A DNA stretch of 64,000 nucleotides from Halichondria panicea (Eukaryota; Porifera; Demospongiae; Suberitida; Halichondriidae), in assembly GCF_963675165.1 (NCBI RefSeq), contig NC_087384.1:5573182-5637181 (forward strand), written 5' to 3'. This document shows positions 22,639 to 62,302 of this stretch, piece after piece (position 1 is the stretch's first letter; each line of letters starts with the position of its first letter). Below the pieces are notes generated by a model that was not told the DNA's origin, did no database searches, and worked only from the letters and a program-made list of their open reading frames with translations. Made by a program: the position numbers and the translations under genes.

Positions 22639-22675
<37 letters not shown>

Positions 22676-39237: not shown

Positions 39238-39828
39238 TACATGTATATGCATTGTACAAGAACGTGTTGCTATAGCAATTAATTACTGGCACCCAGGGCC
39301 TTTGTATTATTGTATTGTTGATATATATATATATATATATATATAGGACCTTGGGAGGAAATGAAAAAGGCTCTGCACACCTGGACTTGTGATCTGTGTA
39401 CTGCTTCTATTGGATATCACATCACGTGCACTCCAAAGCATTTCTCATCAGAAACAACCAAAGGTGATGTCATGCTTGTGGTGATCATTACACACTTTAC
39501 CTATATATAGGCTGCTGCAGTATTGAAACTTCCCCATACAAGTAAAATTATACTATATTGACTATAATATTATTGACTGGTGAACATTAATCTTGTTTTA
39601 CATGCATGTTTGATTTACAACTATAATTTGTCATGGCAATTCATTAATTATTATGAATCCTATAATTATACAAAATTGCAAGACTACTGCATGATACATC
39701 TCCTATGGCACATCTGCACACTGAGCGCACAATGTTCTCTATAGTTATAATTTATGGCTATATAATAATGGCAGCAAACACATCAATTTTGTCCACATCC
39801 ATGATGCGCAGCAAGCATACAAAATCAC

Positions 39829-41298
39829 TCACTCCCTCCCAGCGCGACAGGAAAGAGGGTAGATGGAATTATCACAACCTTGGATGGTAGGAAGCTCAGG
39901 CACTGAAACAGGCACACTAGCACTGATAGCAGCTGTGTATTGGCTATTGAAAACCTCTGGAACAGAACCAGGTGCAGCTCCCTTCCTTCCAATGATAGCC
40001 CAGGCTCGGTATGTACCGACATTCCAAATGTGTGCACTGCCAATGTTTTCGAGAGCTTGTTTTCCACCATTATCGAAATTGCTGATACCATCGTAAGACA
40101 TAGCTGCGACTATAATACGGCCATTTGGAATGTTTGCAATAAAAGAATTTAGTCGGCTATCTTCAGTTGAACTACCATGTGTGTTGTAGTATATAGTTTG
40201 ATCAAACTCACAGCTGTTCTCGTCAACCAACCCAACAATTAGCCCGTACAATGGACAAAGGTTACTAGGAAACGTTTGATGATTTATAGAGATATATGTT
40301 CCTATGTAACCTGTAGCACTACATCCACCCCAATGGGTACTCGAAGCTGCTGAAATTCTACAAAATGAAGAATTCTTTGATGTACCAATTGGTATGTAAG
40401 AAGTAGCAAAAGCAGGTGCATAGTATTTCACAGATTCGGCTACTTCTCCTGGCAAAGCACCCTTTCGCCCAATAATAGCCCAAGACCTATCTATCTGGGC
40501 GTATCGAATGAGCTTGCTGCCAATTTTTTCGCAAGCATCCTTGGCCTCCTCTGTAAGGTGAGTGATTGCATCTCCTTTGATAGCAATAGCTACAACTCTA
40601 CCGGGAGGTAGTGCATCGATATATTCAACAAATGCAGTGGAAGGTGTATGATCAGAAACAGCTTCAGCATGTGTGTTGAATACTTTAGTATCCAAAACAT
40701 ATCCTGTGTTTTCATCAAAAACAGCAACATTCAGTCCCAGGTTGTTACTATCTTCACTAGTAATTTCAACATTCTTTCCATCGATGGTGATAGTCGCCAC
40801 ATTACCTCCACTTGTTTTCCCACCTGAAACCACTGTTACACGGAGTCCATACATCTTAGTTGACTGTAGTTTGACTTGGGTGGAAACATTAACAGCAAAG
40901 CTTTGGCTGTGGCTCTCAATAGCTTTATTTTGCGCCAATCCTTTCACACCAACCATCGACCATGACGAAGCACTATTCATATTGTATGAGTATGCAGACC
41001 CTAGCGTGCGAATAGCTCGTTTTGCTCTTGTGTCGAAATAGTTTACTGGATTCCCACTTGAACTCATTACAACCAACGCACCTGGATGCAAGTTCTCAAT
41101 TTTTGATGCCAATAGCAATGAAGGATTATTATTTGGATATGTGTCATAGTTCATTGTTTCCCTCACTTCACCTGAGACTTCATCGATAATGGCAATGTTT
41201 ATTCCACGCCTTCTGCCTCCAAATATTTGTTGCCAATCCTTGTGCATTGAAAATCGATTACCAACACTTGTCCCTTGACTTATTACATCTATCTGCAT
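39829..41298 (-). CDS. Protein with three ILEI/FAM3-like domains (copy B)
   Basis: 489 codons, the same length as copy A, with scattered substitutions and no frame breaks. That both copies stay open over 1.47 kb suggests function. Domain endings are again SWSMVGVKGL, SWAIIGRKGA and AWAIIGRKGA. Several differences cluster in the third domain (for example TQWTGCTAAG against THWGGCSATG). As in copy A, the chosen ATG gives no signal peptide, and a preceding exon is suspected. Confidence 0.82.
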   Translation of the reverse strand: MQIDVISQGTSVGNRFSMHKDWQQIFGGRRRGINIAIIDEVSGEVRETMNYDTYPNNNPSLLLASKIENLHPGALVVMSSSGNPVNYFDTRAKRAIRTLGSAYSYNMNSASSWSMVGVKGLAQNKAIESHSQSFAVNVSTQVKLQSTKMYGLRVTVVSGGKTSGGNVATITIDGKNVEITSEDSNNLGLNVAVFDENTGYVLDTKVFNTHAEAVSDHTPSTAFVEYIDALPPGRVVAIAIKGDAITHLTEEAKDACEKIGSKLIRYAQIDRSWAIIGRKGALPGEVAESVKYYAPAFATSYIPIGTSKNSSFCRISAASSTHWGGCSATGYIGTYISINHQTFPSNLCPLYGLIVGLVDENSCEFDQTIYYNTHGSSTEDSRLNSFIANIPNGRIIVAAMSYDGISNFDNGGKQALENIGSAHIWNVGTYRAWAIIGRKGAAPGSVPEVFNSQYTAAISASVPVSVPELPTIQGCDNSIYPLSCRAGRE

Positions 41299-41362
41299 GG
41301 CTTCAGTTGTATTTAGCTGGCTGCATCCTGTACCAGGCCCAAATATAAGGTGTGTTAGTGCA

Positions 41363-41463
41363 ATGCTAGCCTCGTCCCCAGGCTAAGTTGTCTCTACCCT
41401 ATATATAGGCCACAACGTATATTTTCACTATCTGGAAAAATTGGCCTGGGGACGAGGCTAGTG
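41363..41463. repeat. TAGCCTCG foldback element (block B)
   Basis: Same element as 18843-18942. Confidence 0.8.
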
Positions 41464-41532
41464 CAATACGTATAGAGAAAATAATGTGAGGATCAGGCTA
41501 GTCTAAAAATCACTGTATATATTAGCCTCGAT

Positions 41533-42131
41533 CCCAGGCCGCACTTCCCGCTAGGGAAGTGGGCCTGGTATTGACTGCTTGCGCATGCGCTAATATCCCC
41601 CCGGTATCTGGGGGCTTTGGATAACCGATGCTCAGTAAAACTATGACATCACAACGAAAGGAAGTGGATTGAAGGAAAGTTCGATTGAAGGTTTCTAGCC
41701 CATCGGATAGCATTCTCTGATAGCTACCCTTAGCCTGCTATGTTAACAAAGACTCACAGCCTGCAACAGTGTGGATGACGATCATCTGAAAGGAGTGACG
41801 GCTGATAAGAGCCTATATGGACAGGCCACGCCCATTTAACACTAACTTTGGTGAAAGTCTACTATACTACTGCTACTGATTCTATCAGAAGAAAATAGCA
41901 GTACAACAAACCTACACAGCTCTGTTTCTAGCTAGCTAGCTATATAGCTCTGTGTATGACTTTTAGGATATTTTCTCTGATGTACCAGTATTATAGGAAT
42001 ATTTAATTTACGGGTAAAAAATCCAATATTATAGTATTATAGAAATATTTACGGGGAAAAAATCCAATAATTTGGCGCATGCGCAAGCAGTCGATAGCAG
42101 GCCTTCTTTCAAAGGCCGGTGAAGGAGGCTA
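41533..42131. mobile_element. ~600-bp insertion with TAGCC ends, block B only
   Basis: Starts TAGCCTCGATCCCAGGCCGC and ends GGCCGGTGAAGGAGGCTA, inserted in a TATATA run that is uninterrupted in block A (18995-19005). No coding potential of note. The short element at 5223-5302 has the same two ends. Confidence 0.75.
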
Positions 42132-42219
42132 TGTATATATATATATACATGCATCAATAATTATGTTTACTTAGTCTATATATACATGTAGTGAACTTCT
42201 TCAAACAGCATGCACTACT

Positions 42220-43176
42220 ATGATATTATCCTATGGATACTGAAGATTATCACGAGTCTGTGCCAGTAACTGCACGAGTGCCTGCAAGGCACGAGTGACA
42301 GTTACTAGGCACGGACGAGTGATAATCATCAGTATCCATGGGATAATGCATTTATTGCTTGGCAACCAAAATGCAGGTTGAATCTGCGCATGCGCAACAT
42401 GCGGTTGCTTTTATCAACCAGAAGAATGCGTAGCAACAAAATTGAGTTCTCCCAGTTGAAGACGAGTTTAAGAGAAAGAAAACAGCTAGAAAGACAAAGA
42501 AATAAGACTCTAGAACACCAAGAGAGCTTGCAGAAGGCTACTTAAAGATTTTGTAGAGAACAGACAAGAAAAAAAGACAGAAAAACGTTGACAACCAGCA
42601 ACCCGTTTTGAAAATGGATAGTTCTGAAGGATAAACAGCATGTGCTTGCTTTCTATCATGCTCCAGTGGCTCCAGTGTATCAGAAGAGGAAACATGCACC
42701 GCTATAACTGAAGAAAAGTGTGACAACCGTTTTTGAAGCCAAAACGACTTTATACAAGCCTGAACAGGCTTATATGGTGGTGCAGTACACTTCTACATGT
42801 GCAATACTCCGCTCAAAGTACCCACTCCCAACACTGATGCCTGTTTGATGCATTAAATATGAATACTGACAACCTCCTGACCCTCAGCTTCACTGCAAAA
42901 AGAGCACAGAAGTGATACAGAGCATCAGAAAACAAGAAAAGAGACTGATAAACATTGCAATGCATGATTATAAGTGTGTAAACTATGTTTTTCTTGTTCT
43001 CTCACTGCTGAAAACGTTTTATTCCAAATAATAATCACTTCCTAGTGTGCAATAACAAGTGTGCAATAATACTTCCGGGTGTGCAATATGGAAAAATATC
43101 TGCACAGTCGGTGATGAGTCGCTTCCTGTGCAATTTGAATGTAAAACGCTGATGTCAGCACTTATTAAAAAGCAAT
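42220..43176. mobile_element. ~960-bp insertion, block B only
   Basis: Interrupts the block A sequence CATGCACTACAATTATATAT (19065-19085). The left part contains an inverted pair ATTATCCTATGGATACTGA / TCAGTATCCATGGGATAAT. No clear gene seen. Confidence 0.6.
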
Positions 43177-43995
43177 AAAATTATATATGTGAGTGCATGC
43201 GTGCTATACACATTCTGTACAACCATATAATTATACACAATCTTATATATGCATGCGAGAATCTCCTAGCCTCATTTATGCACAAGCCGGTTTGGTTTCT
43301 CAATGGGATTGAAGAAAGATAGGCTATATTTGTGCCTCGAAGCGTAGCTGCACCGGTAAAGTAGAGTAAGGTAGAAGAGGGTATTGTGAGACGGAACCAA
43401 TTATGAGACAGCTGAAACATGAAGTCTATAAAAACAATTATTCCTGTTTTAACAGTGAATCAGTATTCATAAGCAGCGCTTTCTTTCTCTACTATTTTGA
43501 CGACTAAAATCGGCACACGATCTTTGCGGTAAAGTTTTGTCATCTATTTTATATAGCATAATTATAATGATAGCTATAGTGCAAGCTCTGCTTTTGAGCA
43601 ACAGTATGTACATATAGACACATAAAACAATAGAAACAATGTCTCTTTTTCTCATTATTCATGAGCAAACGCTGCATCGTAACCTTAACTAACCCTAACC
43701 CTAATTCTTATACTATAACTCTTTATAACTCGAGAACGAAGCATTGTTTTGCAAATTCACAAATTGCAATCTTGGACCATGAAAATGTGTAGAAACTCTT
43801 ACTTGCATGCATTTCTTGAGCAGCTTGAGCAGTCCACACATGCACTACCGTCTTTTAATTAGACAATTATAGTGCCGTATATTGGTATATTAATTTCTCA
43901 CATCATTATTTTGTCTGGTTTTATATTCGTGCACTCCTGACAGCACATAATTATATTGACTAGGGCTGGCAACATGCATAATTTATAATATATAC

Positions 43996-45837
43996 CTGGG
44001 CTAGACGACTGTGATTTGAGTATATTGGCCTTAGCTCGAAAGCCAGAAGAAGTAGTCGTCTCATCACTGGTGAATTCAAGAGTGAGAACATTGCCAGAAG
44101 AACTGTAACCACAATTAACCTCAGCGAAATCTCCTAAATAATTATTACGAAATTTATCACCAAGTTTATAATAAGATATAATATATATATATATAATTAT
44201 ACTGAATCTAGCACCTACCAGTTAGTTTTGCCAGCTGAGTATCTGTTGAACATACTCCGTCACACACTTTCACCCAATCATAGTTCTGCTCTGCCTTTAT
44301 GAAGTCAAATTGCAGACTGATGTACCATCCTTCCGGAGCATACACTGTCCATGTGCACTTCAAGCTATTGTTGTAATGCCTCGGAAAATTTGGTGATTGA
44401 ATTTTAATGTCTGTGTTTATCACAAATGCACCGCCACAATCTGTTGGGGAAAATATTATATGTAAAACGTAATTAAAATGAGTTTTTTGTCAGCTTACCA
44501 AAATTTGCTATTCTGTTAGGGGTCAAACTTGGCATTGACTTTAAAACATCCTTAGAAGACACATCAATTATAGCCTGCTTGAGATGGGCAGCTTTCATAA
44601 ATGGGGTGCGAGAAAGATGAACGGCTGCTATACCACACACAAGAGCAGAAGCCAAACTAGTGCCATTTCTATTTTCAGTTGTACATGTCAAGCAAGAGAT
44701 ATTAGCTCCTCCGATTTTTTCCCCAGGAGCGAAAACATCCACACAGGTGCCATAGTTGGATTCTTCGAAGATACTGTCATTCACTTTGGTAGCCCCAACC
44801 CTCAAAACAAGTTTATTGCTTGCTGGCGAAGAGTCACAAGAATCGCTGTGAGTGTTTCCAGCCGAGCCTACAATTAGTACATTTCTGTCATTGTGCAGAG
44901 TTGCAATTGCTGAATTCAGGGACAAATGCACACTACCGCTAAGAGTCATACTCACAATAGCAGGCCGTTTTCGCTCGGCAACTTCAGTAGCAATAAAGTT
45001 GAGACCATCAAGAATAACGCTCCAAGGAGCAGCTCTCTCACATCCAAGCACTCGAACACTTATAAGATTCACTTTCTTTGCTGTTCCGTACGTTTTTCCT
45101 CCGATCAAGCTAGCAACCAGAGTTCCATGCCCATTGCAATCTCTTCCATTCTGTGGCTTGTAATCACGTGTGTTCAATGTGGTGAAATGGTACTCATCAA
45201 CAGGATCATAACCAGCGTATTTTGCCCGATTTTCAAATTCAGAATGCTCAAATTCGATTCCTGTGTCAAGAACGTACACATCAACTGTTTCTTCTTCCTG
45301 GATGTTGAAACTGTTTGTATAGATGCCATCAAGTGGGAGATTCGGCTGATTAAGCCTGTCCAGAAACCACAGTTGTTTGTCGTTTGTCTCACAAGTAATG
45401 TTATCGCCAATTTTTACTTTCGTGCACTCGGTACCAAACGCAATGTCTTCCTCCTCGATATGATTCACTTCATCCAAGTAGAGTATCTGCAATGTAATGC
45501 GTAATATCCAACTCACTATAGGCATAACTTATCTGACCTTGTCCAGGACATGCTTTGGTGCATCCACAGTGAGTGTCTTCCCCACATGCTCAGTGTAGCG
45601 ATGCACAGTGACATCATCCGACATCCTCTTCACCTTCTCCACCACTTTTTGCAGGTCACTCTTCGAGGAGTCTTGTTTGAGCACCACAATATGATGGCCA
45701 GTAGTAGTGGCTCCTGTTGGGGCTTTCACCAATGGCTTGGCAATACCCTCTGGTGTCAGATAGCCATACACGATGAATGGTAGCAATACCGCTGCTGCGA
45801 AAATAATGTGGTAGAACCTCTTCATATTTGACTGCAT
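43996..45837 (-). CDS. Secreted subtilisin-like protease with CUB domain (copy B)
   Basis: Exons (minus): 45837-45538, 45486-44499, 44440-44219, 44133-43996, each the same length as in copy A. The Asp (VLDTG), His (NGHGT), Asn (GSAGN) and Ser (NGTSLAS) residues are all kept. Differences are mostly conservative (for example HSDSCDSS for HSNSCYSS, and a GPC to GTC change). The final GT donor after STS-P in the CUB domain is conserved, which supports either a shared unseen last exon or shared readthrough. The retained frame and catalytic residues suggest both paralogues are active. The propeptide again begins after a hydrophobic signal (IIFAAAVLLPFIVYG). Confidence 0.88.
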
Positions 45838-47124
45838 GACTCAGTAAACATGTACTGATGTAGCACATGCACAATCTTCTTATTTATAGGTGAAACCCAC
45901 GTACACCTCATGATCAGCATACAATGCAGTCCAATGGAGCAAGATTATTGTCTCTAGAGTGCTATATGTTTCTACCATTAAAGAGTGGGCATGTGTTATT
46001 CTACGAACTTAGATACAGAGATACTGAAAGTAGACAAACCAATGCATAGTGCACATATAGTTCTAGGTTATACCATATCATTATAGCTATTAGTAGTGAT
46101 GTAGACACCCCAAATCTTAATGGATCTATACATCTCGGCCTCCGCATACACTCATCGACAGGATATACATGATTGTACGTGTACCAGGCCCGCATTTTAA
46201 GTACGTGGGAGGGAGAGCTAGATTATAGGTCTTTTACGAGCAAAAGTTAGAACGTGTAAACGTGTTACTCTCAGCAAAAATTATAGTTCAGAGTATAAAT
46301 TATATAGTTCAGAGTTGTGATATAATAATAATTATGAGCAGGTTCGATTCTTGGGCTACTTAATGAGGTGGCCTTAAGACGATCTTGTTCATGCACATAA
46401 TTGAGGAACGTATAGTATAGAGAGAAAGAGGGCCTGCATTGAGCCAACTCATAGTTGTGATGTAGTATTGGTCGTGTTTTGCCGAGAGTAGTGATGCCAG
46501 TCTTTTGTACACCTCTATATATAGCCTCGAATTCAGGCCGATTAAAATACGATCTATAGTTTTACCGTAAACTTATGTTTTTCAAGAGATCTGAATGTGT
46601 ACACACAAAATGAACAATGAGTGATCAGTTTATTATAAGGACGAGCATTTATTAAGGTTGAGCTTTGGATGACCACGTCCACCGCTACTGAGTTGTTAAC
46701 TATATAGGTACCCACGTGATGATTAGATCCCTTGCATAGCTTGTATTGATGAGCGTAATAGTGCATGAGAATGCTATAATTTGCATTGTAGCTAGCGTAG
46801 TGTATTATTGTAGGTCTGACCCCAACTGGAGGAAAGCATGGAGGCTAGTCTCTTATAGAAAGTATACAGTGGCCTCCCTAGCTAACCTTCAGTGGCGGAG
46901 AGAGAACTAGGAGGGAAAAGTAGCATGTTCAATTTCATTATTCTTTGTTCGTAAGCTCTGTTCATGCTTTCGATAGGTAGTTTGAGATCTGCATGTGTGT
47001 CTGTTAGATGGAGCAGGGGGTTTAAATCCTAACGCCAAAGTATGTATATATATGCTCGAAGGTACCTCCCCAAACACCGTTAGCAGCAATGTCCAGATGT
47101 GCTCCCGCCTGTGCGTAGATAGTA

Positions 47125-47587
47125 CAGTGGAGTAGGAACAGGGGGGGCCAGGGGGCCAGTGGCCCCCCCAACATTGAATGGGCCCACCCTTCCTGAGTTG
47201 GGTAGGTGTTCTAATTAACCAATTGAAAGCATGCAGAATGAAAGAAGGATTGCTTTTTTTGGACATTTCCGGAATGATAATACTCATATTTATTTTGAAC
47301 GCAATTCTGCAGTATACGGTATTATTATATTACAACTTGAATGTATACTCAGTGTGTGTGTCACTGTGTGTGTGGATTTTGAGAGTTATTATATATAGAC
47401 TTTAGTTCTTGTTCAGAGCTAATAAGCTTGTAGCTAGGCCGCATCTAATTATGATGTCATATAATGAGGAGATGTGGCTTCCTGTCTCAAATTTTCCGGC
47501 GCTCTGTGCCAGGGGCAGTCCCATTTAGGTGGTACTTTGCACCACCCAAGTGGCCCCCCTAACCTTTTAACTGTTCCTACTCCACAG
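47125..47587. mobile_element. 463-bp insertion with CAGTGGAGTAGGAAC inverted ends
   Basis: Left end CAGTGGAGTAGGAACAGGGG, right end GTTCCTACTCCACAG, flanked on both sides by TAGTA. It is absent at the matching site near 25632. The CAGTGG start resembles non-autonomous hAT elements, but the 5-bp direct repeat is shorter than the usual 8. Confidence 0.75.
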
Positions 47588-47708
47588 TAGTACATGGGCG
47601 TGGATTAAGCACATGCGCACTATCACACATGCATGCAATAGATACCATGTATATAGGCTGTATTTTAATCGGCCTGGAACCGAGGCTACTATATACCCGG
47701 TATGTAAA

Positions 47709-47913
47709 TACCGTATAGCGGGTAATTTTTGTGGATAAAATATTCGTTATTTTCGTGGCAAGCTGACCTACACAACATTTTGTAGGCATGGCTTATACCG
47801 TAACGCATGCATTGCAGTGCAAGCAATGAAGTTAAACAGAATTTAAACTCATGAAAATCACCGTTTTCCAGTGAACGAATTTTTACCCCACGAAAATGAC
47901 CCGCTATACGGTA
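47709..47913. repeat. Foldback MITE, TACCGTATAGCGGG type (block B)
   Basis: Paralogue of the element at 25727-25945; ends TACCGTATAGCGGGTAATTT and ATGACCCGCTATACGGTA. Confidence 0.85.
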
Positions 47914-48199
47914 CATAATTATCCCAACATTACATCTCACAACTGTAGGCTGTAACTGCATGACTACATGTACTAGACTAGGCCAGTTTTTTAGGAAAAA
48001 TTGTCATGCACACCACTATAGCTAGCTAGCTCATGCGCATGCACCCTAGATTCAATCTATGCATGCACAAAGCTTGAACTATATTTCATTTGCAGGTGGT
48101 TGAAACCATCATTGTTTATTTAGCTGCCAGAAATACACCAATATGAAAACAGAGGGATAGATCTATAGATGATTAGATAACATCATGTGCTGCAAGTTA

Positions 48200-49592: not shown

Positions 49593-50397
49593 GTACCATT
49601 CAGACTCTGTTGAAAACATTGGTGCACGTGATGCGTTTCCAATCCCTGTCCTTTACAATGTACTATCTATGGTTTAACAATATGATTGCTATACCTGCTA
49701 CATCAAGACAGGAGTTAAAAAACGAAGGCAAGTGCAGCAACAACTCGATGTTTGTGACTAATCTAAGTTTCTGGCTCATTGCTTCTTATGTTAGAGTAAA
49801 ATATATCAATTATCAGACAGAACGTATAATCAGACAGCTGCCGGAAGAGAACGAATGGGCGAAACAAAGCTGATTTTTCACCCGGCAATATAGGTCTACC
49901 TATTAACAACATAACCTCCAAAAATGATAGCCCAATTCTAAAATATGCATGAAATAATTATACACCAAAATGTTGTGGTGTCTGATATATTGAAAATTAA
50001 ACATAATATCAGACATGCACAGGAACCTACGAATCACTGAAGAGGCAGAGCCACAAGATTAAAGGTGCTTTTGATAGCTAAAAGACTCCTCTTCCACATA
50101 TCACAAAACAAAAAAGCATCCTACGCATGACAACAGCAGTTACAAAACCACTAACAGCACTACACAAATATCAGACAGTGCATGGGTATATAGACGACAT
50201 AGGTCATGCTCATATACACACTCACAAGACCTTTTATCATATGATATGCAAGAATGTTTGTGTGTGAATGGTAGATTCTATTATAATTAATGGTTTAGGG
50301 TCATGAATGGTGTACCAGAGTCTCTCAGCATCCATAACACTCCTGGAGATTAACTTGCTGATTCTGCACAAAAGTATCAGTCAGAGGAATTGACAAT

Positions 50398-50430
50398 CAC
50401 ATTCACTGTTAAAAGTTCCCTTTCTCTTTT
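50398..50430 (+). repeat. Left terminal inverted repeat
   Basis: Begins CACATTCACTGTTAAAAGTT and ends TTTCTCTTTT. The reverse complement of 60183-60215 is identical except one C/T difference at position 23. The internal piece ATTCACTGTT occurs again at 50447. Confidence 0.88.
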
Positions 50431-50648
50431 GCAGGATCAGAATAGAATTCACTGTTTTATTAGTTAAGTGAAACAAAAATTGTTTGATTTTTTGTCTATT
50501 TGTAAATCTTATCTGCATTGTTATGTTATTGTTGTATTCCATGGTTGTGTTAACTTGTTTTTATTGACTCTGTTTAGCATACTAGATTTGGAGAAGCTAA
50601 CAGAGATATATTTTGTATCACGATAAACAGAATGAAATATACACAACA

Positions 50649-53600
50649 TTAGGTGTTACTTTGCTTTAGCTCTTGGTATACACTCTTTAAATGTTCTATT
50701 GTCTTTTTACGTAGATGACCGGTGGACGTCAACTGGAAATCGTACAAGAGTATTGAGGATTTCGTGACTGAATCTTCCCACTCAATTCGCTTCCTCTTGT
50801 TTTCTGGATCCTGTCTTCTTGCCACTTTCCATTTGCTGTTGTACTTCCCTTCCATCCAGACAACTCCTACCTCTGAATCTGAGATTGATCGAAGTTGAGC
50901 AATCCATGGCTCGATGTTACTGCTTGGACAGCTTCTGACTGCCAGCAACTGATCAATCTTGAGACCTGCTAAATCCTGCACCTCCCTAACGTCTGTCCGT
51001 GATTGCTTTCGGTAGGCCCCAGTGTACACCTGTATGACATTGAATTTGAAGGTAGATACCATGTGAACAAAGCAACCTAAATTTAGGAAGCCTACTCAGT
51101 GACCTAAATTTAGGGATGGTATAATTTGTGTGTGTGCATGCACACATTGACCTAAATTTAGGGAATTGTGTGTATATACTTATGCATTACGTATATACCT
51201 AAGTTGAAGAATTATGCAAAGTGACCTAAATTTAGGTTATTATAAATTTAGGGAAAGTGCAATAGGTGTGCTGAACTGTCGTATAATTATTGCTTACATT
51301 GCACTCTTCATTCTCTGCAGCAAATAGAGCTTGAAGCTGGGTATTCTGAGGCGCATCACAGCTCATATCTGCTGATCCTGAGGCTGGGAGTTGGGCCAGT
51401 TGACGAACTGTGTAATAATTATTAGAATATAAGTGATATACGTAATGTAAAGTATTATTATGGTGTTACGTATATAATTCTGATTGAAATGAGAGTTTGC
51501 TCACCTTCTTGGAGATGTAGCAAGGGCCAGGGGGTAATTCCAAATTCATCATCAGAGTAGACAGCGTCCATATCAAATTGCTCCCACCAAATACGAGCAT
51601 CATCAGAGATCCAAGAATAAAACTTTGGAATATCTATGTGTAGACGTGGCAGGTCTATCTTGTTGTCAGACAGGTGAACTCTATTTGGAATGCCACATGG
51701 AATCTCCTGCACAGTACATTTTGCATGTAAAGTTAAAAGCGTGTAATTTGATCTATACGAATGCATGAGCTTAATTTATAGCCATAAGAGGTGTAGGTCG
51801 ATAAATACATTGTCCATTTTTGTTACAGTAAAATGCACGAATCAGTAAAAATTTAACCCTCAAAAATGTTACGCTATATAGTGCAAAATCCAAATTTTTA
51901 TGAACATAATAGGCACATTAATTTTTTAAAGAATTCAAGAATCGAATGGGTGTATTATCAGGGCCTAGAGAGCTGTAGAATATACTTATGGTTCGAACTT
52001 CAGCGTCTGTAAAAAACTGCTATTAATTATTATAACAACTGCATATACCCTAACACAAAGTGTGTTGCCATACATAATGTAGTATGCATGTGCTTGTACG
52101 GTATTTATTATGATCACTGACAAAAAAAACGTTATTACATGCGGACTTGCCAGAAGTAGTTTCACTGCTACATCAGCATTGCACCAAGCATCACTGCTCC
52201 AATGCCGAAAATACATCACAGCTTTCCCATCTTCTAAAAAGAATTTGAAGCAATGTGGAAGAGAGTGACCATTTAGTCCGTCAATACAAGGTTCCAGCCA
52301 CGACCTCACATCAGAAACAGTATTGAGTACCTCAACCGTTGGGGTAGGTGTGCTTGACTGTGTAATCTGCTTTTGGAGATCTGTACAATTATACATGCAA
52401 CAATAATTATGTAATGTCACAATCAATTCAAAACCAACCTTAATAAATTTATAGGAAGTATAATTATAGCTATAATTATAATTGACCACCATGCATAATA
52501 CCTACATACTACATGTATAATTATGAATGCATAATTATTACCTGGTAAAGATTCAGCTCCTTTTAGAGTGAGCTGCTTAGATATCCTTGAGAAAAGCTGG
52601 TCAATGTCCTCATGAGTATGACCAACAGGTAGGAAGTTTACCCGCACCTATTATAGCACAATGTATACAGTGTCATATGCATGCATGGGCAACCATGCAT
52701 TGACAATGTGTGCATGAATGATTATAATTATAGTCATTAGGGCAGGGCAGTGCATGCAGTTGCTATGTAATAATTACTATAATGATACCTTAGTGAATAT
52801 CTTCCGTTCTACCAACAATGCACAAAACCCCAGGAAGAACTTGTTTTTGTTTTCTTTTGCTGTATTGTCCAGTTGGATGTTGAGAACTGGTGGGAGATGA
52901 TCTAGAGCAATCAAGGATTTGAGCAGCACATGAATCGTAACATTGCAGTCATGAGGGAATTGCAGCATGTCAATGTAGACGTGAGCTAACTTTCCATGAG
53001 GTGCCCGGGTGTGTACTAGCACTCCAGTGACGTGTGTTCTGAGAGGAAGCAATCCCTGCACAGACTTTGGGATCTTTGCGAGGCGAGGAAGATTGGTCTT
53101 GTGCTGATCCATGCCATCAATGATGATGGTAACACTGTGTTGTGGATTTGTTCTAGATTTTTCCCGATGACCATAATACTTCCGCCTTTCTTGCCTGTCA
53201 CCATAATAATAATAGCAAGATGGAATAAAATTCGTATGCATATAATTGTGAGTCCCATGCACCCATGCATAATTACGTTTTGGACGTATAATTATGCACA
53301 TGGGACGAGTAATTTAGGTACATTTTATTGCTGTCTGACTAAAGGCAAAGAATTAATTGCGTGGAAATGTAATGTGTACTCGAATACAAGGTAAAGGCTT
53401 GCAGAGTCACTTACTGAACAATCTGTAGATGTTGATCATACTCCTCCTTAAATCTACACCTCCATCCACTCTTCATTCTTTCCTGGTCAAACTTAGTGCA
53501 AATATCACACTTGCTGAAAGCGCTTTGCTGTAAATTGGATAATTATATGGTTATGGTTATATAATAATAGTATAATAGAATTAATACTTACACTGGGAAT

Positions 53601-54812
53601 GAGCACCTTCGAAAAATCTTCTTTCCAAAAGCGGTAAAAGGTAGAAACTTTCACAACAGCATCTTCTGGGATTCCTCCAGCCATGAGCTCCCTCTTCATC
53701 CTGACGTACACATCGTACTTAGTGAGGAAATGAGGAAGGTGTACACGATCGATGTTAGGCATCTGATCTCCAATGAGATTAAAGTATTGCCTCATCCAAG
53801 TCTTGGCTTCAGACATTTTTGAGGCCTCGGCTCTCACGTGGGGTTTTCTAGTGGCTTTGTGAATGCCATTTGAGAATTGTTCGGTTACTGTTTTGAATCT
53901 CTTGTTTGAAATTCCAAGAATATTCAAGAAGGCGTTCTTGCATACATGCTTTCCTTCGAGCATCATCGTAAGCTTGCTTGAGCTCGATGATTGTCTGCTT
54001 GACGAGGGAATAAATATCAATGAGGTATCAAACAGAAACTGTTTCTGGTCAGCTCTTCTCTTTTTGTTAAAGATACCTCTAACTTTCTGTACTTCCTGCT
54101 GAGTAAATGCAGCAATACACACCCTTCCACAACATTGAAACCGATGAGAGCTTACAGGAGATTCACTCTCATATTCCAAAGGATCTTCTGTCCTTCGCTT
54201 CTTGACAGGTGTTGAATTCAAAGGAGCTTCAAATTGGGGATCAAAATCCATGAGTTCGAGTAGTTCGGAGTCAGCATCACAGTTAGTGAAGCTGGAGGAC
54301 ACAAACAACTCTTGGCTGCTGTCTACAACAGGAGATAAGAGCAGAGAGTTTTGCGTGTTGGTAGTCATGCTTGTCTCTGGAGACACAATAAGAAGGGAGT
54401 CTTGCGCTATGCTTGTTTCGAGTTCTGGTGACACAAAGAGGAGGGAGTCTTGCGCTATGCTTGTTTCGAGTTCTGGAGACACAATGAGGAGAGAGTCTTG
54501 CGCTATGCTTGTTTCGAGTTCTGGAGACACAATAAGGAGAGAGTCCTGCGCTATGCTTGTTTCGAGTTCTAGTTCTGGAGACACAATGAGGAGAGAGTCT
54601 TGCACTATGCTTGTTTCGAGTTCTGGAGACACAATGAGGAGAGAGTCTTGCTTGTTGTTAGCTATGCTAGCAGGAGTGCATGCACCCCTGATGCTAGTTT
54701 GTGAGTCTTGCTTACTGCTTGTCCCTGGTGACACAATAAGGAGAGAGTCTTGGCTATAACTGCCATCATAGAGAGGACATGAATCATTCATCATTGCATG
54801 CATGCAAGCCAC
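50649..54812 (-). CDS. DDE/RNase H-like transposase-type protein (DUF7869 type), 8 exons
   Basis: Exons (minus): 54812-53592, 53527-53415, 53194-52789, 52647-52542, 52380-52151, 51706-51505, 51407-51298, 51029-50649; all phases join to give 922 residues. Residues 21-163 are an imperfect repeat of QDSLLIVSPELETSIA; a basic KKRR (204-207) could be a nuclear signal; RFQCCGRVC (about 224-232) and KHVCKNAFLNILGIS (288-302) follow. CDIC (414-417) looks like half of a zinc site. The core has the spacing of an RNase H-like nuclease: IIIDGMDQHKT (Asp471/474), NIQLDNTAKENKN (Asp554) and VGHTHEDIDQLF (Glu593, Asp594/596). I recognise this last signature from DUF7869-type proteins of marine invertebrates, plants and oomycetes, whose activity is not established as far as I know. 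The intron after exon 5 uses a GC donor. Start could also be the Met at 54797 or 54794. Confidence 0.8.
51075..51253. repeat. Cluster of ACCTAAATTTAGGT palindromes, left side
   Basis: Four full CCTAAATTTAGG sites (51075-51088, 51102-51115, 51150-51163, 51224-51237) and one partial site (51243-51253). All are in the last intron of the DDE-type gene. Confidence 0.9.
54360..54760. repeat. ~48-bp coding minisatellite
   Basis: Encodes the repeated QDSLLIVSPELETSIA of the DDE-type protein; about seven units, with one unit carrying a two-residue insertion and the outer ones decayed. Confidence 0.92.
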
Positions 54813-54984
54813 AAATCATGCGCACTGAACTATCACACCTGCGGGTTCACGCATGGCTACTTTATTGCGCATGCGCCGATGGACTAGCACTATTCAGCTG
54901 CATTTAAAACTGCACTGCACTGCGCTGCACTTAGTAGTACGTGCTTAGCTACTGTAGCTCCCTAGTTTACAGCATAGGTGAAGA
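54813..54984. promoter_or_regulatory. Divergent promoter gap of the two-gene element
   Basis: 172 bp separates the two start codons. It contains GCGCATGCGCCGATGG (an NRF1-like GCGCATGCGC palindrome, at about 54868-54877), a GCATTTAAAACTGCAC TATA-like piece (about 54900) and repeated CACTGCACTGCGCTGCAC. Both genes must start in or near it. Confidence 0.55.
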
Positions 54985-57900
54985 ATGCCTGCAACCAAGA
55001 GGTGGCACTTTGAGTTTCTCGTGGGTGGAGTCAGTGGTATCACTGTGTACAAGAATGGTGCAAGGATTAAGAGCTACAAACTCCCAAATCGCCCAGTCTT
55101 GGAAAGTGTATATTCAATAGGTACTCCTTCTACTAGAAAGACTTGTGATAAGGTTAAAGAATACCTAGATCAAGCCATTGAGGTAAGCTATAATGTATAA
55201 CAATGTTGTAATTTTAGTAATAAGCACCACAGATATAATCCTGGTTTTTATTGGTCATACAGGTCACATTTAAATGCAAGACTACTGTGCTCCTGAACCG
55301 GAAGGAGTTTGAATGGAATAAATCAGCATTTTGTCGACTGTTGAGGCTGTCTCCTGGGGCGAGAGGAGCAGTCGACTTCATTCAAGTCTTCAACCAACTG
55401 ACAAAGGTATCATAATAATGTGTCTTGCCCATTTCTGCGTGATTGCTAAGGTGTACAACAGTTGATACAGTCCCTGTTTTTACATAGGAATAATGGGGGG
55501 GGGGTCATATAGATCCTTGTGATAGGGAAAATGTAATAATTGATGTACAATGCGTTTTCATGTACATCACTTGTTTACATACATTGTACATAAAATTAAC
55601 ATAATAATAACTCTATATAATTATAAAGTTTACTTAATAATTATAGTATAGAGTTCATGTATGATCGCTAACCCACCAATATAATTATAACCGTTCAAAT
55701 TGCTGTCTGCATGCATGCTTATAATATTATATACCCATGCATGCATCATGCGTGGGAAAACAGTTGAACATACAATCAGTGCATGGCAATCAATGTTTGT
55801 ACGTGTGAATTCTATATCTTGACATCATGCACTGTATACAAACCTCGTGTTTATAATCTACACTAGCTAACCTGATAAGGTGTTAAAATTGTTACAGCAG
55901 CTATATGTATGTACATATTCTTACTTTATCTACAGTTCAATTCTGACCGAGGCTTCTTAGTTCCTGTAAGCCCCCTGCCAACCAGTTCGGAGTTGCTAAC
56001 TGAGGAGGCGTTGTCTGATGGTGGTGACTCTGAGGATGACCACCCGCTGTCTTCATTGACAAGTACCCAAAGCATAGACGGCAGCCACCAACTTGGAGAA
56101 AAGAGAAGTCAGCAGGAGGAGGAAGTATCGAGAAAGAGGATGAAGCACAAAGATACTATGGACGATGCGATCTTCACCAAGAAGATTGGTAAGCTGCATG
56201 TGTGCCAACTGTATCACACATGCAATTTCAACCTTGCTTGCGCATGCGCACCAAGGCACAATTGAACTTCTCTCACTTGATATTGTATATGCATGCATGC
56301 AGGAACTATTGATCTCCAGCTGAGAAACCTCTCAGAACCCAAAACACAACGCTGTTTAAGAACGGTTGACACTGTATTTGTGGAGGAACTAGTGAAGAAG
56401 TTCACTAAGGATCCCTCTGCTCCAGGTGTACCTCCGATTGCTGTTCTGTGCATTTCTGTTGAGAGCATAGATGTGTTTGACACCAACAGAGTGGACGCCT
56501 ATAAGTACGAGCTGCTTGGAGGCCAGCATACAGCCTTGGCAAGAAGGATAGTAGCAGCCAAGTCTCCAGACAATACGTTGCTACAGACTGTCCTTGCTGA
56601 GGTGTATGTTGGTCTGACAGACGATGAAGCACTTAGGCTCGCCTCTCGCCACAACACAAATAGTCATTTTATCCACAAGATGACACATCGGGACTATGTA
56701 AGTTAAAGAATTCAAAATTCCTCTAAGAAATAAGCTGTGTTCATTCATTTTGCTATGATTATAGCTTGAGGCCTGCCGATCGAAACTGTTTTCAATGTGC
56801 GGTAAGGCTCCTGAGGAGGAAACCCCAAAAGACTCGGTGGAATGGAAGGATGTGTGCAAGCGATGCATTTTACCTCAGGTATTATACTATTTCGTCTGTT
56901 AATATACATTGTACTTTACAGAACTGATCCATGCATGCTCATAATATTTGTCCAAATCTTAGGATATGGGCCGCTGCACAATGGAGAATATCTTTAAGCA
57001 GGCAAGCTTTACTAAGGAAGTCTGGGCATTGGCCGTATCGGTCATGAACTTGTACGAGGAGGGGGAGCTGAAAGACCAGACCCTCTCAACAAAATCTCTG
57101 ACTACAAAGCCCGAGTTTAAGCAGCAAAATTTTAGCCCAATCCAGTGCCTTCCTGATGAGTTCAAGCTGGAAATGTTATCAAAGGTATACAAGCGCTTGA
57201 GAAGATTTTCTATAGACAAAATAATATTGTTACGTGTAAAAAAGCACATGCAGAGGTATAATATAGGAGCCTGACAGCGTAATCTATTTATATCTGCATT
57301 GAAGTTGTTATGAATTAATAGTAATAGTTTTTTAGATCATGTTTGCCTGCAATCTGATAGGCTATAGAGGAAGTGTTCTATCCAACTTAGTATACTTACC
57401 GTATAGCGCGAATTTTCGAGGCACTTATATTTCGTGGATTGGCCTCTAAAAACCATTTCGTTGCACAATGTTCGCGGAATGACTGCTTACGGGAAGCCAC
57501 GCCTTTAAATATTTGCACGATAGCAGGTAATTCTAATTAAAGAACAATTTTCGTGGACTTAATTTTCGTATAGAATTCTAACCCACGAAATCCGCGAAAA
57601 TTAAGCCCCTCGAACATTTCGCGCTATACGGTATTTACTTCACTTATGTAGCAAAGATTAGATAAGAATAGTGCATGATTGACTAAATTGAGAATCATGG
57701 TTGCTATATTATGCATGATCTATAATCAGGGCTAGTAGAACCCTCTCTACACGTTCGGGATACTACAACCATGCAGCTCTAAATATTAATTATTAATTTT
57801 CCAGGTTTCAAGCAGTGAGCTAAGCCTTGCCGAATTAAAGGAAGAAGCTACCAGCTACAGATCAAGAAAGTCTCTGCAAAGGGCTTTCTGCAAGTAAATT

Positions 57901-59951
57901 AACAATCACATGCATGCATTTGTATAGACACTGTTTAGGAAGTTTCTAGAAGCCCAATTAAAGGGCTGGTAATTGTAGTATCCCGAGGGTTCTACTAGCC
58001 CTGACTCGTGAGGACTTCTAAATCATGTGGAAACTTCCTTTTTTTGATCTAAAGTGTATTATTTCTATAATCACATTTTTTAAGTCAAGTATAATTCCAT
58101 CCCAGGATAACTACTTCCAGTACGTGGTGCGAGGCAAAACGTAGATTTCCTGCCTTCACTACCCCAGAGCGTCTGAGGACATTCCACCAGATATGTTTAA
58201 CCAAAACAATACCGGCGTCTTTTCGTTCATATTGTGAGGCAGCTCTAAAAGCAGAAAAATCAGGCAGCACAGACAACACTGTTGTCCCCTCGGCTGATAT
58301 ATATAAGTTCAGGCACTGCAAGGCTTATGTGGTCGAAGGGGATGCAGCAAACATGTGCTGCCAAGATGTTAGGGATGTCTACCCTACATTCATGGGCTCA
58401 AATCTCTTCCTGGCTGACATACCCGTGGTATAATTATGTGCATGCATGCACGTACAGCTATAACACATGTATATGTTATAGCTACGTATATAAACACTCC
58501 TGATATTATACTTACATGTTGTTCAACTTCGTGCAGGCGTGGACAACAGAACAAATTCAAAGCCTTGTGTACACCACAAAACAGCTGAATACAATACCCG
58601 AGAAAACTGTGAGCACATTTAATGTTGCATTGATTAGCACCAGTCTCTCAAAAATTGAAGAACTGAAGAATTGTTTGTTGAAGTGCTACGAACACGTCAG
58701 TGTGTGCTACTGGCAGACAGGGTGCACAGGTAAACTATGTTCAATAATAATTCATCGACATTGTACATTTAACAACTTGTGTCACACGGTGTGTGCAAAT
58801 CCATCGGTTTTTCGCCTCCGCTATAATTATACACTCAAAATAACAACGCTATAAATATTTCGCATGACTGTATATAATATTTATCGTGTAACAACTGTAT
58901 AATAGCGTGAACTTTTTCGAGGTGCTTAATTTTTCCTGATTTCGTGGGTTAGCAATCCTACTAATTATCTGCTGTAACTCGCAAAGATTTAAGGTGTGGC
59001 TTCTGGTAAGCACGAACATTGTGCAACGAATTGCTTTTAGAGGCCTTTACAAAATATATAAGCACCTCGAACATTTCGCACTATTATGTACACATGCAGC
59101 CTATTATATCGTACATAACTATAAGCATAATAATTATTATACAGCCCATAACATTATTGTTATAGGTGGCTTAGATTCCACTCATCCACTGGGATTTATC
59201 CCATCAATTGGATGTGTGGTAGTGGGACACTACTCACTCAGTGGAAAGCTGGAGGAGGACCACTTTAACTTCGTTGAGGAAGGGCGGTCCAATTTCTTCC
59301 CCTGTATTGATCAATCCACTGCTAAGATTCCGATTTGTGTGCTGACAGGCATTATAAAGAAGCTGTCTTTTGAAGGGAGCACTGTTATTGATGCCACAAG
59401 TGAATCTGGTAATTATTATAGGATGACAGTGCATGCATGCATGATTACTATTTTATGTTTTAGATACCCAGCATGATTGTGATGTACAAACAACTATGGA
59501 CCACCTGCCATGATAGTCAGATAGTTTCGGCCTTGTTGGGCCTCGTCAGCATAGCGTAGTTGTATATATGTAATGAGTACATGTAATAAGATTACATGCA
59601 TAATAATTATTATATACATGCACATACATGTAATTATCATGTGTATAATAGTGCATGGGAATGTATCCATGCATGCACATGTACACAAGTAGAGTTCATG
59701 TATGCATGCAGTTTACCTAAATTTAGGTATTATTATAATGCAACTGTCTCTAAATTTAGGTACAACGTACAAAGTTAATGGTACATGTATACCTAAATTT
59801 AGGTAGAATTGCATAACACATCGTTTCATGCATGCATGCAGGTAACTGTGCAATTGCCTCACTACAAGCAGGAAGAGATGTGGTGGTACTCAAGGCATTG
59901 GCCCAAGCAGCACTTGCAAGAAGCCAGCTTGCAGAACTGTCAACAACATAG
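54985..59951 (+). CDS. ParB-like domain fused to degenerate N6/N4 DNA methyltransferase, 11 exons
   Basis: Exons: 54985-55182, 55263-55406, 55936-56188, 56303-56697, 56765-56878, 56963-57184, 57805-57893, 58106-58427, 58537-58729, 59166-59408, 59842-59951; all phases join, giving 760 residues. Residues about 115-198 are an acidic then basic low-complexity linker (KRMKHK). Residues about 200-330 fit the ParB/Srx fold: a leading IDLQLRNL strand, PPIAVLCI, then YELLGGQHTALARR (motif at 271-274), VYVGLTDDEALRLASRHN. The C-terminal half fits a beta-class methyltransferase in order: VVEGDAANM (about 547-555), LFLADIPVAW where DPPY/W is expected (576-579), and VIDATSESGNCAIASLQAGR (from 717) in place of DPFxGxGT. 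The DPPY change to DIPV suggests loss of catalysis, perhaps with retained binding. ParB-methylase fusions are known in phages and bacteria; a eukaryotic transposon copy is unexpected. Residues 1-110 are unrecognised. Confidence 0.82.
57397..57633. repeat. Foldback MITE, TACCGTATAGCGCGAA type, in intron 6
   Basis: Ends TACCGTATAGCGCGAATTTT and ATTTCGCGCTATACGGTA; interior arms CGTGGATTGG...CCACGAAA. Nearly the same element, reversed, at 62009-62245. It lies between exons 6 and 7 of the ParB-methyltransferase gene. Confidence 0.9.
58896..59084. repeat. Decayed TACCGTATAGCGCGAA-type MITE in intron 9
   Basis: ATAGCGTGAACTTTTTCGAG at the left and CACCTCGAACATTTCGCACT at the right; an older copy of the same family. 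Confidence 0.75.
59715..59804. repeat. Cluster of ACCTAAATTTAGGT palindromes, right side
   Basis: Two full sites (59715-59728, 59791-59804) and one partial (TCTAAATTTAGGT, about 59749-59761), in the last intron of the ParB-methyltransferase gene. Confidence 0.9.
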
Positions 59952-60182
59952 CTAGCTATGGACTAGACTATACTATACTGTTTCAAGCGTTCCGTTAACT
60001 TCTATGTTACTTTGTATATGCGGAGTATACGACTCGATCTTCATCTTATTGAATGTTCATCTGGTTAAGCAAGTCAATGGGTATCAATAGAAAATAATTG
60101 GTGTTCTCTAATCTTTGAGAAATTAACAGGGATATTAAACTAAAAAAAATGATTATGAACAAAAAACATAGCATATTAAAAT

Positions 60183-60215
60183 AAAAGAGAAAAGGAACTT
60201 TTAACAGTGAATGTG
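60183..60215 (-). repeat. Right terminal inverted repeat
   Basis: Reads AAAAGAGAAAAGGAACTTTT and then AACAGTGAATGTG, the reverse complement of the left repeat but for one base. Lies 232-264 bp after the ParB-methyltransferase stop codon. Confidence 0.88.
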
Positions 60216-62302
60216 TTCGACAGCATTTCTAGCTAGGATCACAGATAACTAACATACTTCCATATAGAGATGTGCTCTCACATTATAACTATCATAATCA
60301 TACAAACAGCATCTCACTTCACTGCCACATGTTTTATTTGAAACTCAAGAACCAGCTTGAGCTAGCTGAAGCAACAACTTGATCTAGATATAGTATCTAT
60401 ATATATACCAGTTCTCCAAGGTCTTGTAGTCAAAGAGAGATCAATCCAGTACCCAAGGACGAGGACACAAGTGTATCAAAGCAAGACAGCTATACATCAT
60501 TTATATAGCCAGGAGTATATACTCCTGATATAGTACCCACATGCAAGTCATTTGTTATACACTATTATTATAGTATAGCTTAATAAAGGTTATCTTCATC
60601 TTTTTACACAGGGAGCTCGTCTACATGTCTATGCCAGTGGATGACAATTCTTGATGTGATACACGTACTGAATAATTCTTTGTCGAATTATTACTATAAT
60701 AGCTATGAATGTATTCATCCAGGCTGATGAGAATGTGGATACAAACATGAAGATCCCATGACAAGCCCCATGAAGTCAGCAGATGCATGGTATCCGTCAG
60801 ACTGCTTCAGCAAATTACGAGTGACTTTGAAATAGATTTACAGCTTAGATGCATTCTATATGTACGTTATATTGTTTTTTTCTTGTGACATACGTGTACT
60901 CTATACTGTTTCATCACTGCTAATATCTTTATTGATCAGATGATTGTGTAATTGTTAAATGCATGGCATGCATATAGGCATGCTTTGGCATGTAAGGCTA
61001 GCACACTAAGGGTATTACTTTACATTCATTATGTGCAGTAGAGTGCACCACAGCAGTGTCCCTGAACACCCTTAAAATGGGTTAGATAACACATCATCAT
61101 AGGTATGTTTTTTACCACACTTTGTGTGTGTAAAACTTAAACAGTCATACCAACACATGAAAAATGTGTAAAGTAGCACGTCATTTTTAACAGTGTATAC
61201 TTGTGGCGCCTAAGAAGACATAGTCATAGATTGACAGCCATATACATTTCCAGCACACACTCCCAATTATAGAAAACTATATTATGGGCCATATTAAGTC
61301 GGTTGCACTGGTATAGAGCCATAATTATAAACTGTGTATGACAACACTGGAACCTATATCTAATGAAAGCACCGCGGGTACTGATGCCTCGGTGGAGGTT
61401 CCAAAGCTACTTAACATAAAACTACATAGCTAGCTTTCATACACACATTTATCATGATGAACAGTTTTAATTTTGCTGCATGCAATCACAGGGAAACTCA
61501 AATAGTGGGTAATGATCTGCTTGCCATTGTTTCGGCTTATATAATTGAGAGTGACAAAGATTAATGTGGTATTGTTTTAATGGATTATGAAGCACATGTA
61601 CAGCAAGCAGTAAAAGTCAACATCATGTACACAATATTTAATGTTCATCTTTGTGAGACTCGGTATATAGTCTAAGTAGTCTAGCGAGTGCATGTGGAAG
61701 GTATACTGGTCGCCATGGCAAATCTTATTAGTTATGTTCCGCCATGCAATCTCTTGGATAGTACAGTGACTCAGAGAACTGACTTATTAAGATCGTACCA
61801 AACACGCGTGGAATGAGGTCGAAGTTCAATTAAATTCGGCCTGGTCTCGAGGCTAAGTGTAAACATTTGGCTTTAGACGTCCGTGCGCATGCGCAGCAGG
61901 TTAAAAGGTGAGACAACACAATGTACTTCTCCTTCCTACAAAACATATATAATACACGAGTTCAGTCAATACACTATAGACACAAAATAATAAAGCGTAA
62001 GTACTATCTACCGTATAGCGCGAAATTTTCGAGGGGCTTAATTTTCGCGGATTTCGTGGGTTAGAATTCTACACGAAAATTAAGTCCACAAAAAGTGTTC
62101 TTTAATTAGAATTACCTGCTATCATGCAAAGATTTAAAGGCGTGGCTTCCGGTAAGCAGCCATTCCGCGAACATTGTGCAACGAAATGGTTTTTAGAGGC
62201 CAATCCACGAAATATAAGTGCCTCGAAAATTTCGCGCTATACGGTATATAGAAGTATATCTGCATTGGTACATATACTTATATACTGCTACACTATATAT
62301 AG
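60216..62302. other. Spacer right of the two-gene element
   Basis: Contains a reverse partial copy of the 38385 element (61365-61510), a TAGCC-type end near 61853 and a MITE (62009-62245). A stretch at 61040-61195 has several TTTTACACA / TGTGTAAA pieces suggestive of another decayed foldback. No gene seen. Confidence 0.55.
62009..62245. repeat. Foldback MITE, TACCGTATAGCGCGAA type
   Basis: Ends TACCGTATAGCGCGAAATTT and AATTTCGCGCTATACGGTA; reverse-oriented near-copy of 57397-57633. Confidence 0.92.

Follow-up and report, generated by a model that had tools for sequence, protein, structure and literature searches.

The window analysed here is a stretch of 64,000 nucleotides from the demosponge Halichondria panicea (NCBI RefSeq assembly GCF_963675165.1, contig NC_087384.1, positions 5,573,182 to 5,637,181, forward strand). 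Positions 50398-60215 of the window are occupied by a 9.8-kb element (insertion at about 50396-60218) with two genes, a predicted DUF7869 transposase gene (gene 1) and a gene for a putative ParB-methyltransferase-like protein (gene 2). Other loci are given as contig:position in the searched genome (131 Mb, 39 contigs), in which the window is C8:5573182-5637181. The original prediction, made from the window sequence, described 33-bp terminal inverted repeats that match at 32 of 33 positions and enclose two intact, multi-exon and head-to-head genes. Both parts are borne out: the repeats are found at 50398-50430 and 60183-60215, and both genes can be built by hand as open GT-AG models, with the stop codon of gene 1 located 251 bp inside the left repeat and that of gene 2 264 bp inside the right repeat. 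The exons of gene 1 have no outside support; for gene 2, an NCBI prediction for another copy (P0001, LOC135344519, 471 aa) is identical to exons 1-7, less one glycine. The features of the element are as follows:

50392-50395, no strand: left copy of the target-site duplication (GACA), present once in related empty sites on C9 and C4
50396-50430, plus strand: left terminal inverted repeat, AT followed by the 33 bp that start with CACATTCACTGTTAAAAG...
50649-51029, minus strand: last exon of gene 1, encoding a C-terminal domain homologous to the C-terminus of the Nipped-B-like protein (PDB)
51075-51238, no strand: left subterminal array, within the last intron of gene 1, with four copies of CCTAAATTTAGG (51076, 51103, 51151 and 51225)
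54791-53592, 53527-53415, 53194-52789, 52647-52542, 52380-52139, 51706-51505, 51407-51298 and 51029-50649, minus strand: gene 1, predicted DUF7869 transposase, 919 aa, 8 exons, hand-spliced and open
54328-54752, minus strand: 48-bp coding repeats near the N-terminus of gene 1, QDSLL(I/F)VSP seven times
54792-54984, no strand: putative divergent promoter region, 193 bp between the start codons of the gene models
54985-55182, 55263-55406, 55936-56188, 56303-56697, 56765-56878, 56963-57184, 57805-57893, 58106-58427, 58537-58729, 59166-59408 and 59842-59951, plus strand: gene 2, putative ParB-methyltransferase-like protein, 760 aa, 11 exons, hand-built and open
56303-56697, plus strand: exon of the ParB-like domain (GGQHTALAR ... 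GLTDDEALRLASRHN)
58106-59951, plus strand: exons of the methyltransferase-like domain, with ADIPV at motif IV and VIDATSESG at motif I
59715-59806, no strand: right subterminal array, within the last intron of gene 2, with two palindromes (59716 and 59792) and a shorter third (59750)
60183-60218, minus strand: right terminal inverted repeat, 33 bp plus TTC (plus TT in most other copies)
60219-60222, no strand: right copy of the target-site duplication (GACA), from flank comparison and related empty sites

Ends, target sites and copies of the element

The end sequences are found at approximately 12 loci genome-wide, mostly alongside sequence of gene 1 or gene 2. Nine further genomic matches cover most of the left 603 bases and five cover most of the right 376 bases. 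Before CACATT at the left end, most other copies possess AA and the window copy AT. Read by eye outside the extended AA...TT ends, the target duplication is 4 bp long in all five copies that have both ends in order:

C8:5.62 Mb, the window copy: GACA, displaced by one base
C8:3.31 Mb (C8b): AAGA
C12:5.02 Mb: ATAT
C11:2.90 Mb: CTAT
C1:17.48 Mb, a 2.9-kb deletion derivative in which neither gene is complete: AAAG, with six extra bases at the right end

For the window copy, a TGAC/CGAC duplication with one transition and an extra T at the left end is an equally good alternative, and is still 4 bp long. A duplication of 5 bp, which fits the window copy with one transition, fits none of the other four copies and was rejected.

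When the window flanks are joined, they align across the junction at four other places with 71-88% identity. Two of the four, C9:1859562 and C4:3051576, were read and have the form ...AGAGGAAT(G/C)GACAGCATTTC..., in which GACA occurs once; they are related empty sites. Recurrence of the repeats and genes with a fixed-length target duplication, which the original prediction had set as its check, is thus what the genome contains, and the element is confirmed to be a multicopy DNA transposon with terminal inverted repeats, predicted to move by cut-and-paste. Duplication of head-to-head gene pairs does occur, and two copies on C5 with common flanks may be such a case. As an account of the family, segmental duplication of an ordinary gene pair is nevertheless rejected as next to inconceivable because of the empty sites and target duplications; fixed ends, differing flanks and deletion derivatives with the same ends contradict it as well.

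The window, C8b and C3 copies diverge from each other by 0.34-0.47%, and the C12 copy differs from these three by 1.4-1.6%. Between the C11 and C12 copies, 0 differences are found at 8568 compared positions, although their flanks are unlike. Because the copies are nearly identical and C11 and C12 are alike despite different flanks, the family has been mobile in recent times. A comparison of five copies shows an open gene 1 in the window, C11 and C12 copies, an early stop in that of C8b and a shift in that of C3, while gene 2 is open in the window and C8b copies and frame-shifted in C3. In the form shared by C11 and C12, gene 2 is without exons 3-5 and some of exon 6, and hence without the ParB domain, and gene 1 is open to the end.

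The C3 copy (C3:1891.8-1901.7k, 1.89 Mb) is a circular permutation, in which bases 7810-9818 of the element are followed by GTG-TTGAA-CAC and then by bases 1-7807, with the ends joined by the 5 bp TTGAA (1 bp if AA and TT are counted as element). Approximately 11 bp, TACCGGCGTCT, are present at both of its outer borders. In the simplest reading, an excised circle would have been opened and then captured at a break; the alternative, deletion inside a tandem pair, needs two coincident breakpoints.

The two genes and their pairing

In Pfam, gene 1 matches DUF7869 (PF25273) at residues 482-672 with E 4.3e-68 and no other family at E up to 1, which rules out membership in the Kyakuja-Dileera-Zisupton (KDZ) group. 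A 485-residue query from gene 1 found 308 relatives. Many of the 120 matches listed are metagenome proteins without a name; the named ones include proteins of other sponges, corals, a sea anemone, echinoderms, an acorn worm, lancelets, bivalves, a nemertean and the alga Chara. Gene 1 shares with the DUF7869 proteins of animals and Chara the whole domain, the acidic residues, the cysteines and the C-terminal domain. Among the matches listed, family members are labelled uncharacterized, hypothetical or DUF7869, and the term DUF7869 was not found in the open-licence literature searched. A widespread and undescribed animal domain is now tied to a DNA transposon whose ends and target duplication are defined and whose copies are nearly identical.

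When gene 1 is aligned with the 120 listed of the 308 relatives, D464 is invariant (121/121) and D547 is found in 97% of 118 rows, while G582-H-T-H-E-D-x-D589, which includes E586, D587 and D589, is conserved in 99-100% of 121 rows (I588 in 90%). Six cysteines and one histidine (C220, C221, C225, C284, C407, C410 and H433) are conserved in 98-99% of 93 to 120 rows. This conservation fits a putative RNase H-type transposase with zinc-binding parts, and the acidic triad that had been read from the window protein is kept across its relatives. Because the acidic residues are conserved, we infer that gene 1 would be the catalytic protein. The C-terminal domain of gene 1 matches the C-terminus of the Nipped-B-like protein (NIPBL) in PDB, which we take to be the human protein, with E 2.2e-9, and a profile of eight other DUF7869 C-termini matches it with E 2.3e-17. 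NIPBL is the cohesin loader, and the homology raises the question of whether NIPBL contains a transposon-related domain.

For gene 2, the original prediction of a ParB fold joined to a DNA-methyltransferase fold is supported: both segments find matches, each of them weak, and the methyltransferase looks catalytically degenerate. PHROG ParB-like families match the domain of the window protein with E 0.041 and that of a relative on C14 with E 0.0064. Twelve phage records from nine phages, all annotated as ParB-like, align at query residues 69/70-123 with E 1-7, and hhalign of a gene 2 profile with three of these phage proteins gives P 6e-5 and probability 65. The same phage search also gave nine crAss-type records, eight of which are shown and align with an unrelated stretch. 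Two of the aligned phage ParB-like proteins adjoin queuine-tRNA-ribosyltransferase and QueC-like genes, which are probably DNA 7-deazaguanine modification clusters. The CTP-binding box of ParB partition systems is GERRxRA; it is absent from gene 2, which reads GGQHTALAR.

The methyltransferase assignment rests on the region of motif I, which matches a PHROG methyltransferase (E 7e-4), an NCBIfam DNA methyltransferase (0.097) and, as the best PDB match, the RsrI methylase (E 1.5). With this part, tblastn found five phage records, one of them a "DNA adenine methylase" with E 4; it also gave 109 plasmid records, and the ones shown are unrelated. The corresponding piece of a C6 relative matched no methyltransferase in Pfam and only an unrelated NCBIfam model at 0.092. 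Motif IV of beta-class DNA N6/N4 methyltransferases is [DNS]PP[YFW]. Gene 2 has DIPV where DPPY is expected and DATSESG where DPFxGSG is expected; the glycine pattern of motif I is not followed in the window and C14 proteins, and the C6 relative keeps DATTGSG. Methylase activity is doubtful because motif IV reads DIPV, and the protein is probably not an active methylase. As judged from these motifs and matches, we conclude that gene 2 descends from a ParB-methylase-like fusion, each homology being weak alone.

Bacterial ParB-methylase fusions and ParB-like proteins of phage modification clusters have the same domain order as gene 2 and share with it the motifs G(G/A)(Q/N)HT..A and DD(E/D).A......N. 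Gene 2 differs from them in being intron-rich, in its extra N-terminal part, in its degenerate methylase motifs and in its location inside a eukaryotic DDE transposon. A ParB-methylase, Bce_0392, has nicking activity, as described in the available part of PMC5512222. Rough dN/dS ratios of gene 2 are 0.12 for window-C8b, 0.58 for window-C3, 0.16 for C8b-C3 and 0-0.10 for the comparisons with C12; they are below 1 in all six copy pairs, with 4 to 14 changes a pair, and indicate that gene 2 evolves under constraint. Two protein searches in other species, with 7999 and 289 candidates scored, gave the Halichondria protein alone among the matches listed, by a method that needs shared exact words and does not imply absence. 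In viral contigs, 44 stretches fit a pattern and none was confirmed.

A genome search with gene 2 gave 72 exon matches, and 59 of 102 candidates were scored. Outside the copies of the window family, gene 2 homologues are found head to head with DUF7869 matches at five places:

C1:8262-8267k: 47% identity in the ParB part
C1:8422-8426k: 43% identity in the ParB part
C14:4826-4829k: 42% identity in the ParB part, read across the pair
C1:8308-8312k: relic, 78%, read across the pair
C7: 36% in a later part, the two genes 13 kb apart

Judged by these identities, the gene pair appears to be old and kept in diverged relatives. Another gene 2 homologue, at C1:8433k, is 6 kb from a DUF7869 gene that already has a partner. 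For the homologue at C6:5846.4-5848.8k (ParB part, 63%), the matches listed include no DUF7869 neighbour; this copy is possibly host-kept or differently mobilised.

Subterminal palindromes and the proposed role of gene 2

The original prediction described the ends and genes of the element and overlooked its arrays of element-specific palindromes. These are AAATTT-centred, have the forms ACCTAAATTTAGGT and CCTAAATTTAGG and lie near both ends, four at 678-839 bp from the left end and two, with a shorter third, at 412-500 bp from the right end. Across the genome, 71 of the 75 strand matches of ACCTAAATTTAGG are inside copies, and a control with the backwards pattern has 5. The copies that hold it include the C1:17.48 Mb derivative, the C5 copies and the right end at C6:1188k, where both palindromes are intact by eye in a gappy alignment. 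The C14 relative instead carries exact copies of TGTACAAATTTGTACA, eight of them to the gene 1 side of the pair and four to the gene 2 side. This 16-mer is found at 33 sites in the genome (control, 0), of which 15 are at known pairs: 12 at C14 and three flanking C1:8422-8426k on both sides (8420.9k, 8430.8k). The gene 1 cores of C14 and C1:8426k are mutually closest (59%, and 29-53% to others). As these two share both TGTACAAATTTGTACA and the closest gene 1 cores, the palindrome type follows lineage; the AAATTT centre is common to both types. Clusters of three or four TGTACAAATTTGTACA sites occur at C3:400992-401445, C6:2289861-2289976 and C11:5123548-5123638 and are perhaps ends of small non-autonomous relatives.

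We propose, with slightly better than even confidence, that this is a two-gene transposon in which gene 2 encodes the element's own binder of the subterminal palindromes. The RNase H-type transposase of gene 1 would cut at the AACACATTC...GAATGTGTT ends, producing the 4-bp target duplication, and the gene 2 protein would recognise the AAATTT-centred palindromes near both ends. Its binding would mark the element DNA and may help pair the ends, prevent silencing or both; either end pairing or anti-silencing may be its role. The methyltransferase part would probably be no active enzyme but a remnant that serves for binding or as a scaffold, and gene 2 could act in trans on deletion derivatives that retain the ends and palindromes. 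It had been suggested that the modification-like protein could mark, recognise or protect the element or help to assemble the transposition complex; because the methylase motifs are degenerate (DIPV, DATSESG), marking now appears less likely than recognition. A more specific version is tentative, and we would put it somewhat short of an even chance: animal transposons, as some algal ones, would carry a ParB/parS-like module, in which a protein of the gene 2 type loads on palindromes at both ends, co-changes with them by lineage and pairs the ends or shields them from silencing without methylase activity, and the element would also pass through a joined-end circle, as the C3 copy suggests.

Several observations weigh against the proposal that gene 2 binds the palindromes. 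The C11/C12 form has moved very recently with gene 1 open and without the ParB domain. Gene 2 is therefore not needed in cis; intact copies may supply it in trans, or it may be dispensable for movement itself. Gene 1 or a host factor could bind the palindromes instead. The pairing has exceptions in both directions: no DUF7869 match is listed close to seven of the gene 2 homologues (C6:5847k, C4:2472k, C4:3751k, C1:8373k, C1:9453k, C1:15655k and C12:4440k), and many DUF7869 matches, including the C5 loci, are without a gene 2 match. The lineage of C7 and C1:8266k has no such palindrome in the readable 1 kb of the 3' part of gene 1, 18 of the 33 TGTACAAATTTGTACA sites are elsewhere without a known gene pair, and the conservation of the C5 palindromes does not clearly exceed that of the sequence around them (0.98 versus 0.94 and 0.81 versus 0.93). 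The descent of gene 2 is also missed by some searches: Pfam matched no family with gene 2, the ParB part of the C6 relative matched three phage records and none of ParB, and three-member profiles against PDB gave 0 matches for the ParB part and, for the methyltransferase part, one irrelevant match and no methyltransferase.

Binding of the palindromes by the transposase itself, with gene 2 having another task such as DNA modification or acting on host proteins, is a possibility that we consider rather unlikely and that shares some ground with the other alternatives below. Transposase-bound subterminal repeats are commonplace, as in several hAT and CACTA elements, and the recent movement of derivatives without the ParB part, with gene 1 open, would agree with it, as would the fact that the motif type tracks gene 1 phylogeny, which is compatible with co-evolution with either protein. 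A ParB-type protein with palindromic sites, however, is a classic pairing. The C7/C1:8266k lineage, which has gene 1 and no array in the part seen, also speaks against binding by the transposase, but does not separate the two genes as binders because that lineage has a gene 2 relative too. That gene 2 encodes an active DNA methyltransferase, which would bind element DNA and modify it in the way proposed for algal proteins (in the part of PMC12477816 available), is improbable. The matches of motif I in PHROGs, NCBIfam and PDB and the DATTGSG of the C6 relative would be expected of an enzyme, and DNA-modification genes in transposons have been published, as the accessible parts of the sources describe (PMC12477816; PMC12730594; PMC5890265). 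Against activity are ADIPV in place of the canonical motif IV, the departure of motif I from the glycine pattern in the window and C14 proteins, and the lack of a methyltransferase match for the C6 piece in Pfam and NCBIfam. That gene 2 is a passenger or decaying, with no role for the element, is very unlikely. The C11/C12 form and the C1:17.48 Mb derivative did move although their own gene 2 is not intact, gene 2 matches are missing for some DUF7869 relatives, and the C3 copy carries a frame-shifted gene 2. A passenger, however, would hardly be kept head to head with gene 1 across lineages that are approximately 40-60% identical in protein, with dN/dS below 1, open frames in the window and C8b copies and the same kind of protein in algal transposons.

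The combination of a transposase gene with a ParB-methyltransferase gene, which the original prediction did not recall from any element, has precedents in transposons of brown, green and red algae. In the available description, Sola1-1_Ec32 of the brown alga Ectocarpus is 21.5 kb long and encodes, on the strand opposite the transposase, a protein of 1104 aa with ParB-like and N4/N6 DNA methyltransferase domains; ParB-methyltransferase proteins also occur in green and red algal transposons and are proposed to bind and modify their own element (PMC12477816, which cites Iyer et al. 2011 and Petroll et al. 2025). The sponge element appears to match the domain pair and the opposite-strand arrangement, a likeness drawn from description and from weak domain matches. 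It differs in its animal host, its length of 9.8 kb, its protein of 760 aa, its DUF7869 transposase and its degenerate methylase motifs, and palindrome arrays are not mentioned for the algal elements in the available part of PMC12477816. As far as that description goes, the kind of element is already known from algae, and the animal host, the DUF7869 transposase, the pair in diverged relatives and the palindromes are new. In the open-licence literature searched, mostly as titles and abstracts, no ParB-methylase protein is reported in an animal transposon, with a DUF7869 transposase or with element-specific palindromes; a Repbase entry under another name is possible. The sponge family supplies what the algal proposal did not have in the part of its description available (PMC12477816): candidate binding sites, which are restricted to the element and of another type in a sister lineage. 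The idea that such proteins bind their own element therefore becomes directly testable. Sola2 elements have AT-rich target duplications of 4 bp and, in one family, a transposase of 888 aa, according to the accessible text of PMC3627910; compared by description, the duplication length is the same, but the sponge duplications (ATAT, CTAT, AAGA, AAAG, GACA) are not all AT-rich.

Other two-protein or modification-carrying elements offer analogies. Maize Spm/En (TnpA, TnpD) is also a two-protein system, with different proteins, target-site duplication length and ends; TnpA binds the subterminal repeats of Spm. VANC of the VANDAL elements belongs to another sequence class than gene 2. The available accounts describe activation of Spm/En by TnpA, correlating with demethylation (PMC10398659), and, in Arabidopsis VANDAL, an element-encoded VANC together with element-specific short noncoding motifs that differ between related elements (PMC5735166; PMC10398659). 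Anti-silencing is proven for VANC in those accounts, and gene 2 would be alike in logic alone. By analogy with VANC and TnpA, we prefer to regard gene 2 as a putative element-specific DNA-binding protein acting on subterminal motifs. Mobile DNA-modification genes are also known from fungal transposons with TET/JBP, DIRS elements with Dam-like methylases and retrotransposons with DNMT, as described in the accessible parts of PMC12730594 and PMC5890265; their enzyme classes are unlike gene 2, and ParB has 0 occurrences in PMC12730594.

Other features of the window and the genome

A run of seven minus-strand copies of an 18-bp end sequence (five exact, two with a single mismatch), 44-131 kb apart, is found at C13:5504400-5982393, where the longer element ends are unmatched. 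In the window, a 238-bp repeat at 57397-57633 and 62009-62246 is inverted and 96% identical between its two copies, one of which is in an intron of gene 2; it is probably a nested small transposon. A large segmental duplication in pieces, 81-97% identical, links 14256-25984 with 36194-47952, and both units carry a subtilisin-like open reading frame (ORF) and an ORF of 489 aa, named by eye. An ORF of 381 aa at 28260-29405 resembles, by eye, a piggyBac-type transposase.

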